From: Nitrospirae bacterium JdFR-85
GTDB lineage: Bacteria > Nitrospirota > Thermodesulfovibrionia > Thermodesulfovibrionales > JdFR-85
DNA length: 58,536 nt
Direction of reading: 5' to 3'
NCBI GenBank assembly: GCA_002011745.1
Contig: MTOU01000037.1
Location: 1 to 58,536, forward strand
Below are positions 2,426 to 26,285 of the stretch, in pieces (positions within the stretch are counted from its first letter, which is position 1; every line of letters starts with the position of its first letter). Below the pieces are notes generated by a model. The model saw nothing but the letters and a program-made list of their open reading frames with translations. It was not told the origin of the DNA and made no database searches. The position numbers and the translations under genes are program-made.

Positions 2426-2893
2426 ATGCCCTACTTTGTGGTACATGAACATCATTCAAAAAAGCTGCACTATGACTTCAGGCTTGAAATAGACGGTGTG
2501 CTTAAATCATGGGCAGTCCCTAAAGGACCATCCATGTCTGCAAAGGACAAAAGGCTGGCGATCCAGGTTGATGACCATCCCTTAGAGTATGGAACCTTTG
2601 AAGGAATAATTCCTGAAGGGCATTACGGAGCAGGACCTGTAGTTATATGGGACTCTGGAGAGTTTGAACTTAAGGAAGGCTCCTTAAAGGAAGGAAAGAT
2701 TGAATTTGTACTTCACGGAAAAAAACTGAAGGGTCTTTTTGTGCTCTTGAAAATGAAAGGCAAAGAGAAGGAGTGGCTCCTTATAAAGAAAAAGGACTCT
2801 TATGCAGCGGACAGATTCAGTCTCAAACAGGAGCTTACTCCTCAAAAATTGAAAACTCTCAAGGAGAAAGTGCCTCCCTGCGAGACAGATTAA
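2426..2893 (+). CDS. stand-alone DNA ligase D-type 3'-phosphoesterase (LigD PE domain)
   Basis: At 155 residues this is only the 3'-phosphoesterase (PE) domain found at the N-terminus of bacterial LigD, which trims 3'-phosphate and 3'-ribonucleotide ends during end joining. The expected active-site residues are present: H9, the LHYDFRLE block (H15, D17, R19), H51 in DDHPLEYGTFEG and the DSGEFE strand near residue 76. No ligase or polymerase domain follows, and no Ku gene is in the window. Free PE proteins are known in bacteria and archaea. It is convergent with rsmA, only 1 bp apart. With RtcA, RtcB and EndoQ it adds to an unusual set of nucleic-acid end-processing enzymes here. Confidence 0.88.
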   Translation: MPYFVVHEHHSKKLHYDFRLEIDGVLKSWAVPKGPSMSAKDKRLAIQVDDHPLEYGTFEGIIPEGHYGAGPVVIWDSGEFELKEGSLKEGKIEFVLHGKKLKGLFVLLKMKGKEKEWLLIKKKDSYAADRFSLKQELTPQKLKTLKEKVPPCETD

Positions 2894-2894
2894 T

Positions 2895-3665
2895 TCATTG
2901 AGACCCTGACTTAACAGCCTCTGTTATAAGGGCAAAATCCTCTAAGGTGAGTGTCTCTGCTCTGCGGTCAGGTGAGACCCCCACCTCCAAAAGAAGGTCT
3001 TTTATATCAGATCTGATCGGTTTCAGGGAATTTGCAATCGTTTTTCTCCTCTGTCTGAATGCGGTCTTGACTATCTTTCTGAAAAGCCTTCTATCAGACA
3101 CAGAAACCCTGGGTACAGACAGCCTCTTTATAAACACCACAGCCGAGTCCACCTTGGGAGGTGGAGCAAATGCTCCTTTTGGTATATAAAAAAGTACCTC
3201 AACATCTGCAACAAACTGGACCATTACTGAAAGAACACCGTACTTTTTTGTCCCTGCAGAGGCAACAATCCTCTCGGCCACCTCCTTCTGAACAGTAAGG
3301 GTGGCTGTTATGAGAGGAACAGAGTCTTCAAGGAGGCGGAAGAGTATAGGAGTTGTAATATAATAGGGGATGTTGGCAATCACCTTGAAAGGAGGAAGAG
3401 CGGTGAAATCAAATTTAAGCACATCTCCACAGACTATCTCTACCTCTTCTCTGCCACTGAACTTTTCCATCAACTCTCTACACAATCTCCTGTCCACCTC
3501 TATAGCCAGCACCTTTGAGACTTTTTCGGCAATAAACTCTGTAAGTCTTCCCTTGCCAGCACCAATCTCCACAACCAGGTCATCCTCTTTCAGTGCTGAC
3601 ATGGATACAATTCTCTGTAGAATATCGGGATGGTGAAGGAAGTGCTGCCCTAAGGGTCTTCTCAA
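2895..3665 (-). CDS. rsmA: 16S rRNA (adenine1518-N6/adenine1519-N6)-dimethyltransferase
   Basis: This KsgA/RsmA enzyme dimethylates two adjacent adenines in the 3'-terminal hairpin of 16S rRNA using S-adenosylmethionine. The 256-residue protein begins RRPLGQHFLHHPDIL, the usual start, and has the SAM motif VEIGAGKGRLTEFIA near residue 33. It also has the catalytic NIPYYITTPI motif near residue 98 and the FRQRRKTIANSL patch of the C-terminal domain. It begins 1 bp after pyk and is the last gene of a nadB-pyk-rsmA operon. Confidence 0.96.
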   Translation of the reverse strand: MRRPLGQHFLHHPDILQRIVSMSALKEDDLVVEIGAGKGRLTEFIAEKVSKVLAIEVDRRLCRELMEKFSGREEVEIVCGDVLKFDFTALPPFKVIANIPYYITTPILFRLLEDSVPLITATLTVQKEVAERIVASAGTKKYGVLSVMVQFVADVEVLFYIPKGAFAPPPKVDSAVVFIKRLSVPRVSVSDRRLFRKIVKTAFRQRRKTIANSLKPIRSDIKDLLLEVGVSPDRRAETLTLEDFALITEAVKSGSQ

Positions 3666-7680: not shown

Positions 7681-8487
7681 ATGAGAAAAGAATTTGTTTT
7701 TTTGTTAATACTTCTGTGGGGAGTGTTGGTTTTCCAGACCAATGCCTTCTCCTTTGGTGGATGTGAACCTGACTGCCAGAAGTGCCACACCCTGAGCAGT
7801 GAGGAGGCCAGAGACCTGCTAAAAGAGCTTATCCCAGACCTAAAGGTAATAGGGGTGAGAATAGCACCTGCAAAGGGACTGTGGGAGATTGCTGTTGAAT
7901 CCAGAGGGAAGAAGGGTATAGCCTATGTGGATTTTGCCAAAGAGAATGTGATAATCGGACAGATTGTGAAGATCAAGACAAGGGAAAACCTCACTAGGGA
8001 GAGGTTTGAAGAGCTCAACAGAATTGATTTCTCCCAGATCCCTCTTGATAATGCCATTGTGATGGGCAATCCTAAGGCAGAGAACAAGGTGGTCATCTTT
8101 GACGACCCTGATTGACCCTTCTGTGCCAAACTTCACCAGGAGGTGAAGAAGATACTCTCTGAGAGGAACGATATCGCTTTTTATATTAAACTATATCCAT
8201 TGAAGATGCACGAGGATGCATATAGGAAATCACAGGCGATTCAGTGTGAGAAGTCACTGCAACTACTGGAGGATGCCTTCGCTAAAAAGGAGATACCTGA
8301 CCCTACCTGCGACACTGATGAGATTGACAAGAACATAGCCCTTGCACAGAAACTGGGTATTACAGGCACTCCTACAATTATTCTTGAAGATGGAAGAATA
8401 CTTAGAGGGCTGGTAAAGGCAGAAAAACTCCTGAAATACATTGATTCAATAAAGGCAGAAAAGGGAAAGAAGACTTCAGAGAAATAA
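7681..8487 (+). CDS. DsbC/thioredoxin-fold periplasmic selenoprotein with UPFC active site (UGA read as selenocysteine)
   Basis: The frame runs from the ATG at 7681 to the stop at 8485-8487 with one internal TGA at 8113-8115 (codon 145), giving 268 residues if UGA is read as selenocysteine. The UGA falls in IFDDPD-U-PFC, exactly where DsbC-type disulfide isomerases have the first cysteine of CPFC. The frame is unchanged after it, and the rest of the thioredoxin fold (TGTPTIILEDG with the cis-proline) is intact, so a nonsense mutation is unlikely. A perfect hairpin follows (8131-8148). A signal peptide covers about residues 1-22. The mature N-terminus has C28, C32 and C35 in a CxxxCxxCH pattern; CQKCH could bind haem c or form a disulfide. 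A GAGG site precedes the start. Likely role: periplasmic thiol-disulfide exchange. A separate start at the GTG at 8143 is possible in principle but would lack the active site. Confidence 0.9.
8131..8148 (+). promoter_or_regulatory. SECIS-like hairpin of the DsbC-like selenoprotein
   Basis: Arms CTTCACC (8131-8137) and GGTGAAG (8142-8148) pair perfectly around the loop AGGA. The loop begins 22 nt after the UGA, within the spacing usual for bacterial SECIS elements (about 16-37 nt), and has a G among its first two bases as the bacterial consensus requires. It lies inside the coding sequence, as bacterial SECIS elements do, and would bind SelB. Confidence 0.8.
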
Positions 8488-24409: not shown

Positions 24410-24829
24410 ATGCAAAAAGACTTTGATATACTGGATGTCTCTGGTGATATAGGACTCAAGGTTTATGGAGAGAACCTTGAAGAAGTCTTTCGTAATGGTG
24501 CATTCGGTCTTTACAGCCTGATCACAGACATATCCAAGGTTAATCCTGTAGAACAGACAAAGATAAATGTTTATGGTGAATCACTCCATGGGCTTTATAT
24601 TGGCTGGCTGAATGAACTCATCTTCCAGTTCGATACTTATGGTTTCATAGGCTCAGATATAGTAATAGAGAACCTTACAGAAAGGAGGATAGAGGCCACT
24701 ATAAAGGGTGAAAAGTTTGATCCAGAAAGACATGAGAAGGGACTACTTGTTAAGGCGGCTACATATCACAATTTTAAGATTGAGAAGAAAGATGGTATAT
24801 GGACAGTTGAGGTAATATTCGATATCTAA
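24410..24829 (+). CDS. archease (RtcB activator)
   Basis: Archease lets RtcB turn over many times by promoting its guanylylation. This 139-residue protein has the family's N-terminal [19 protein letters not shown]. The central [19 protein letters not shown] and the C-terminal calcium-site block [16 protein letters not shown] also fit. It is 13 bp upstream of rtcB, and its linkage supports the RtcB call. No clear Shine-Dalgarno precedes its ATG. Confidence 0.93.
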
Positions 24830-24842
24830 GGGAGGTGAGAGA

Positions 24843-26285
24843 ATGATTAAAGGCATAAAAAGGATTGATGAGTACAGGTTAGAGGTTCCTATTGGATATA
24901 CAGAAGGCATGAAAGTAAAAGGGATAATATATGTTGATAAAGAGCTGGAGGGCCTCCTTGAGGAGGGTTCTGTAAAGCAGGTGGCTAATGTTGCCACTCT
25001 TCCAGGCATTATAAAGGCATCTCTTGCAATGCCAGATATCCATACTGGATATGGCTTTGCAATCGGTGGAGTGGCAGCTTTTGAGACAAGAGAGGGTGTA
25101 GTATCTCCTGGAGGAGTAGGTTATGATATTAATTGAGGAGTGAGACTCCTGAGAAGCAACCTCCGGCGCGAGGAGGTGCTTCCCAGGATAAGGGACCTCG
25201 TGGAGGTCCTGTATCAAGAAATACCCTCAGGGGTCGGCTCAAAGGGAAAATTAAGGCTATCAAGAGAGGATGAAAGGCGTCTTCTATTGAAAGGTGCACA
25301 ATGGGCTGTAGAAAGGGGCTTTGGAGAACCTGAAGACCTTGAACGGATTGAGTCAGGAGGAGTATTGGAAGGGGCAGACCCTTCTGTAATAAGCAATAAG
25401 GCTTTTGAGAGGGGAATGTCCCAACAGGGCACCCTTGGTTCTGGAAACCACTTTCTTGAAATCCAGTATGTAGAAGAGATCTATGATCATAAGACTGCAG
25501 ATGCCTTTGGTCTGTTTCCGGGACAGGTAACAATTATGATTCATACAGGCTCAAGGGGGTTTGGACACCAAGTCTGTACAGACTTTCTCGAAGTAATGGA
25601 GAGGGCTGTGAAGAAGTATGGAATAAAACTTCCTGACAGAGAACTCGCCTGTGCACCAGTAAACTCTCCTGAGGCTCAGGATTATATGGCTGCAATGAAG
25701 GCTGCTGCCAATTATGCATGGGCAAACAGGCAGTGTATTATGCACTGGTGTAGAGAGGCTATCACCAAAGCACTAAGAATATCTCCAAAAGAGCTGGGTC
25801 TTATGCTTGTCTATGATGTGGCACATAACATCGCCAAGGTAGAAATACATACAGTTAATGGAAGAAAGCAGGAGGTTGTGGTACATAGAAAAGGAGCAAC
25901 AAGGGCCTTCCCACCTGGACATCCTGAACTTCCAGAGGTCTACAGACAGGTGGGACAGCCAGTACTTATACCTGGAGATATGGGAAGGGCATCTTATGTG
26001 CTTGTAGGAACAGAAAGGGCGATGGAGGAGACATTTGGGTCTACCTGCCATGGAGCAGGCAGGGTGCTTTCAAGACATCAAGCGATAAAGAGAGCAAAAG
26101 GACGCTCAATTGCCCGTGAGATGGAGGAAGCTGGTATAACAGTAAGAAGCGCTGGCAAAAGAACCCTTGCTGAGGAGATGTCCGAAGCATATAAGGATAT
26201 ATCTAATGTAGTTGAGGTAGTAGACAGGGCAGGCCTGTCCAAGAAAGTGGCTAAACTGAAACCTATTGGTGTTGTTAAAGGATGA
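24843..26285 (+). CDS. rtcB: RtcB RNA ligase, selenocysteine-containing (in-frame UGA at codon 98)
   Basis: RtcB joins RNA 2',3'-cyclic phosphate or 3'-phosphate ends to 5'-OH ends using GTP and Mn2+. The frame from ATG 24843 (after GGGAGGTG) to the stop at 26283-26285 holds 480 residues with one TGA, at 25134-25136. That codon is number 98, in GVGYDIN-U-GVRLL, where all RtcB proteins have the Mn2+-ligating cysteine (C98 in P. horikoshii). Other active-site residues align by number: D95, H203 (GNHFLE), H234 (HTGSRG), H328 (DVAHN) and the guanylylated H403 (STCHGAGR). The length equals the archaeal enzyme and the frame is unbroken, so I read UGA as selenocysteine. A SECIS-like hairpin begins 17 nt downstream. 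If UGA were a stop, neither fragment (97 or 381 residues) could form the metal site. The stop overlaps the kinase ATG. Confidence 0.92.
25153..25182 (+). promoter_or_regulatory. SECIS-like hairpin of the rtcB selenocysteine codon
   Basis: The 5' arm is GAAGCA (25153-25158), a bulged A (25159) and CCTCC (25160-25164). The loop is GGCGCGA (25165-25171) and the 3' arm is GGAGG (25172-25176) then TGCTTC (25177-25182). That makes 11 base pairs with one bulge. The loop begins 28 nt after the UGA and starts with GG, fitting the bacterial SECIS pattern. Confidence 0.8.

Follow-up and report, generated by a model that had tools for sequence, protein, structure and literature searches.

An open reading frame on the forward strand of Nitrospirae bacterium JdFR-85 is interrupted by an in-frame TGA, which raises the question of whether this codon ends a truncated protein or is decoded, and if so as which amino acid. 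The frame lies at positions 7681-8487 of the window, by which we mean the whole 58,536-nucleotide stretch of contig MTOU01000037.1 that was analysed. It starts with the ATG at 7681, runs for 144 codons to the TGA at 8113-8115 (codon 145) and then continues for 123 open codons to a TAA at 8485-8487, so that its full length is 268 residues. Homologues align over this full length, and the in-frame UGA aligns with their conserved cysteine, at the first position of the active-site motif UPFC (codons at 8113-8124). Downstream, the cis-proline codon was located at 8371-8373 (Pro231, in a TGTPT segment), and G229, T230 and P231 are invariant in the aligned members. The original prediction had proposed that the TGA replaces the first cysteine of a CPFC motif and that the open frame beyond it carries the cis-proline strand; both points stand, since codon 145 is where the Sec forms line up with the Cys forms, and the frame and the TGTP segment were found.

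To see how this codon is occupied in relatives, members of the family were taken from 149 genomes of the order Thermodesulfovibrionales and from GTDB contigs, which gave 115 distinct members to read. In 125 of the 149 genomes a DsbC-like relative reached E ≤ 1e-20. The first active-site position is TGA in 60 members, including the two genes of JdFR-85 itself, and Cys in 55; neither TAA or TAG nor any residue other than Cys occurs there among the 115. No gene with an ordinary stop and a lost downstream half, which the original prediction had named as evidence against it, was found among the family members examined. Nucleotide differences between the window gene and other members fall mostly at third codon positions after the TGA, just as before it (31, 9 and 64 differences at codon positions 1, 2 and 3 after the TGA in the comparison with L012), a pattern of protein-coding evolution in the codons downstream of the TGA.

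The UGA is followed by a bacterial SECIS stem-loop at 8131-8148, in which CTTCACC (8131-8137) and GGTGAAG (8142-8148) form seven perfect pairs around the loop AGGA. The stem starts 15 nt past the UGA and the UGA-to-loop distance is 22 nt, exactly as first described. The hairpin agrees with all bSECIS criteria given in a review of prokaryotic selenoproteins (PMC13188914), namely a loop of 3-9 nt (here 4), a stem of 4-16 bp (7), a G in the first two loop positions (AGGA), a spacing of 16-37 nt (22) and a minimum free energy of at most -7.5 (-10.0 kcal/mol). Taken alone it is unremarkable in folding energy against shuffled sequences (z 0.13), and the case for a SECIS therefore rests on comparison. 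The stem arises in 1.6% of synonymous-codon samples of the window protein. An Rfam scan of the window returned tRNA only and no SECIS family, a result that carries no weight.

The comparison separates the two forms clearly. A 7-bp Watson-Crick stem in identical register is present in 60/60 TGA members, where synonymous codon choice would give a mean expectation of 8.5% each, and in 2/55 Cys members (L055 and L067), where 0.47 would be expected from synonymous choice. Six of the seven pairs are invariant across the TGA set. Pair 6 is T-A in 57 members and C-G in three (the window gene, L013 and L054), which carry a His codon changed from CAT to CAC on one arm and Met changed to Val on the other. 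Because six pairs never vary, formal covariation is small, and the contrast between TGA and Cys forms carries the weight. The loop is AGGA in 44 TGA members and GGGA, TGGA, CGGA, AGGT, AGGC or AGTC in the rest. Within the stem, Leu is encoded by CTT and Lys by AAG in 60/60 TGA forms each, in contrast to the mixed codons of Cys forms. When only pairs of proteins with no more than 60% identity are compared, stem-loop identity is 96% among TGA forms, whose proteins are about 50% identical, and 66% among Cys forms. Over the 15 nt that follow, the values are 62% and 54%, respectively. One Cys-encoding member, L101, keeps 6 of the 7 SECIS pairs.

The genome of JdFR-85 encodes SelA (521 bits), SelB (395 bits), SelD (325 bits) and a tRNA-Sec with anticodon TCA (73.6 bits), so the check for sel genes that accompanied the original prediction came out positive throughout. 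Its broader claim, that this locus supports selenocysteine decoding in the genome, is upheld by the agreement of the machinery, the TGA/Cys alignment and the stem conservation. The SelD gene (L036; G000 C13, minus strand) has a TGA of its own, in AAGUAAKLGP. Behind it lies GGTCC-GTT-GGACC, which may be a SECIS but is quite unlike that of the DsbC-like gene in sequence. SelA was found in 132 of the 149 genomes of the order. SelA and SelB were not found in genomes G033 and G074, though both carry TGA forms with a perfect SECIS (L068 and L093 in G033, L148 in G074). Both genomes contain a tRNA-Sec match over the cut-off, and they are rated 99% and 96% complete, respectively; the missing genes are likely to be assembly gaps.

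These data bear on two other ways to read the codon. If the TGA were a real stop, the gene would encode a 144-residue truncated protein or be a pseudogene, and TGA is indeed the commonest stop in the window, where it ends 21 of 40 long frames. Against this, 60 distinct genes hold TGA at the exact codon with the downstream half intact and none holds TAA or TAG, third-position-biased change goes on past the TGA, and conservation of the stem is confined to TGA forms. A pseudogene was rejected on the conservation of the downstream half as protein in the 60 TGA forms, and a genuine stop at this position is very improbable. The frame would also stay open if TGA were read as Trp, Cys or Arg, whether by a suppressor tRNA or because the code itself had changed. 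The 21 of 40 long frames ending in TGA indicate that the genetic code as a whole is normal, and a general code change would not conserve a SECIS; with the Sec machinery also present, a changed code was rejected. That Cys is the sole alternative residue seen at the site, and that tRNA-Sec (TCA), SelA, SelB and SelD are encoded, leaves decoding as another amino acid hardly credible. We conclude with high confidence that the product is an exported thiol/selenol-disulfide oxidoreductase of the DsbC type, with selenocysteine as its predicted attacking residue (U-P-F-C). Since TGA acts as a normal stop codon elsewhere in the window, insertion would follow the standard bacterial route.

The window also contains a gene for the ligase RtcB (24819-26282, plus strand; PF01139, E 1.8e-182), with a TGA at 25134-25136 at the conserved cysteine of GYDIN(C)GVR, a residue that we take to be a metal ligand. 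In 11 other RtcB genes of the order this codon is TGA in 7 and Cys in 4, and the RtcB call, which the DsbC-like case had been said to strengthen, gains support from these genes. A text search of the 2026 selenoprotein review (PMC13188914) gave no mention of RtcB.

The DsbC-like gene is flanked by DUF3842 and CooT genes upstream and by an RsmB/F-type methyltransferase gene downstream; L013 shows the same succession, with a DUF3842-like gene before the DsbC-like gene and a methyltransferase gene resembling that of the window after it, as judged by sequence resemblance. A second DsbC-like selenoprotein of JdFR-85 is encoded at C2:64993-65727 (L070; minus strand, about 2494-3312 of the piece G000 C2:62500-68000). 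It has the active site UPYC, is without a CXXCH motif and adjoins a HemH-like ferrochelatase gene, named from sequence only. Its stem, CTTCATC-AGGA-GATGAAG, makes a SECIS of the same kind as that of the UPFC gene.

With the TGA translated as Cys, a Pfam scan identified DsbC_N (PF10411) at residues 40-105 (7798-7995, E 5.7e-9) and a thioredoxin-like domain (PF13098, Thioredoxin_2) at residues 134-253 (8080-8439, E 1.2e-22). Both exceed the Pfam cut-offs, and 9/9 scanned members match both. Inspection of the sequence points to a probable signal peptide at about residues 1-23 (7681-7749), with AxA before FGGC in relatives, and the protein should be periplasmic, as its N-terminus resembles a signal peptide. 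The AlphaFold2 model has a mean pLDDT of 80, and of about 95 across most of the thioredoxin domain. When it was searched with Foldseek, DsbC came first (4i5q, E 3.4e-14), and a profile of nine relatives compared with PDB sequences gave matches that include the DsbC chains 1eej, 4npb and 4i5q, of which 1eej and 4npb match across DsbC_N and the catalytic domain together. VIA-align superposed DsbC 1g0t with a Z-score of 18.3 (205 residues aligned, rmsd 8.5), the best Z-scores being common to DsbC, ScsC and other DsbA/DsbC-like proteins. The DsbC-like assignment made originally is thus shared by Pfam and structure searches. The NCBIfam DsbC equivalog model NF008129 gave 68 bits against a cut-off of 215, and the protein is therefore a divergent relative and not an E. 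coli DsbC orthologue by the NCBIfam rule.

Whether the selenoprotein acts as an isomerase is less certain than its decoding. It could instead be a ScsC/DsbA-like oxidase, a cytochrome c maturation reductase or a metal-stress enzyme, given that ScsC and DsbA-like chains score about equal to DsbC structurally; the protein could also be connected with heme or cytochrome maturation, as the UPYC paralogue lies beside the HemH-like gene and the UPFC protein has a CXXCH. Such roles seem unlikely, though worth keeping in view, in the face of DsbC_N, a domain typical of isomerases, in 9/9 scanned members and of the joint match of 1eej and 4npb to DsbC_N and the catalytic domain. A periplasmic isomerase/reductase of the DsbC type, with a predicted Sec nucleophile, is the likeliest identity of the product.

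The N-terminal motif just mentioned is CQKCH at residues 32-36 (7774-7788), a candidate c-type heme site, with a further Cys at residue 28. CXXCH is present in 101/115 members, about 110 residues ahead of the active site, and both X positions vary; an extra preceding Cys (CxxxCxxCH) occurs in 53 of these 101. No cytochrome c domain was matched by Pfam in 9 members at E ≤ 1. This result, together with the extra Cys, would fit a redox or metal centre built on a second CXXC, in place of a heme site, an interpretation that we find doubtful: conservation of CXXCH including its His, with free X positions, is the pattern expected for c-type heme attachment. On this motif pattern, the mature N-terminus most probably carries a c-type heme site. 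As an extension of it, a heme-linked seleno-isomerase can be imagined, in which the N-terminal c-type heme would exchange electrons with the Sec-Cys site and so couple the respiratory chain to disulfide repair in the periplasm, and in whose family Sec would have arisen on one or a few occasions and given way to Cys on many; taken as a whole, we consider this scheme speculative and rather improbable.

In DsbC chemistry, the first active-site residue attacks the substrate disulfide and the second resolves the intermediate; selenocysteine is a stronger nucleophile than cysteine and has a lower pKa. In the mechanism that we propose, SelB with Sec-tRNA and GTP would bind the hairpin and insert Sec at the UGA at 8113-8115, and the protein would be exported and dimerise via DsbC_N. 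The Sec selenolate would then attack wrong or oxidised disulfides, the product would be released by the resolving Cys148, and the active site may be re-reduced by a CcdA-type membrane protein. One DsbD_TM/CcdA-type protein is encoded in the genome (C1:33046-33693) and is a candidate reductant.

To place the exchange of Sec and Cys on the family's history, the label was mapped on a maximum-likelihood tree. Parsimony gave 22 changes, of which 10 are forced by branches with support of at least 95; a single origin of Sec would mean 22 losses, and Sec that is never lost would mean 32 gains. Sec and Cys have thus switched many times within the family. Because the tree was built quickly and many of its branches are weakly supported, it fixes neither the direction nor the exact number of changes. 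Few Sec gains with many losses are favoured by the near-identical SECIS across the tree, although the SECIS could also have stayed alike under strong constraint on the stem. If gains were few and losses many, the intact stems of L055 and L067 would be relics, the two observed against 0.47 expected being suggestive only; these two and L101 are possible relics of a recent Sec-to-Cys change. Relatives outside the order but in the same phylum are present, mostly without the TGA.

The protein shares with DsbC (E. coli 1eej and relatives; COG1651, PF10411 and PF13098) the DsbC_N and thioredoxin domains, a CXXC-type site, the cis-proline and export, and differs from it in the Sec for the first Cys, the extra N-terminal CXXCH and the sub-cut-off NCBIfam DsbC score. 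Cys forms, found both within the order and among Deltaproteobacteria (L010, L011, L014-L017), have the same domains, CXXCH and CPFC, but Cys in place of Sec and no SECIS stem save in L055 and L067. Like the DsbG-like family (NF041057, Rcas_1661_fam_Se; PMC1088965, PMC1794560, PMC13188914), the protein is a UxxC thioredoxin-fold selenoprotein of COG1651; the NF041057 model gave no match in the JdFR-85 genome at E ≤ 0.1. None of the seleno-specific NCBIfam models matched over its cut-off. In DsbA-like, thioredoxin-like and thiol-disulfide isomerase-like UxxC selenoproteins, Sec likewise attacks in a thioredoxin fold, but these are other families. The selenoprotein table of the 2026 review includes DsbG-like (NF041057), DsbA-like and other UxxC thioredoxin-fold families, and a text search of it returned no DsbC (PMC13188914). 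In the titles, abstracts and passages covered by our literature search, which lay mostly outside subscription journals, this protein was not reported.

We therefore class the protein as a new variant inside the known group of UxxC thioredoxin-fold selenoproteins; it adds a DsbC-type, CXXCH-bearing selenoprotein beside the listed DsbG- and DsbA-like ones. Three findings go beyond the original prediction: CXXCH is conserved, the genome has a second paralogue, and Sec and Cys have been exchanged repeatedly. Replacement of Sec by Cys is called rare in the 2026 review, and there mostly confined to FdhA and SelD (PMC13188914); on the tree built here the DsbC-like family would show about 22 losses, if the near-identical SECIS reflects a single origin. 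With 60 Sec and 55 Cys forms in one family of one bacterial order, the exchange can be traced with the SECIS as a molecular fossil.
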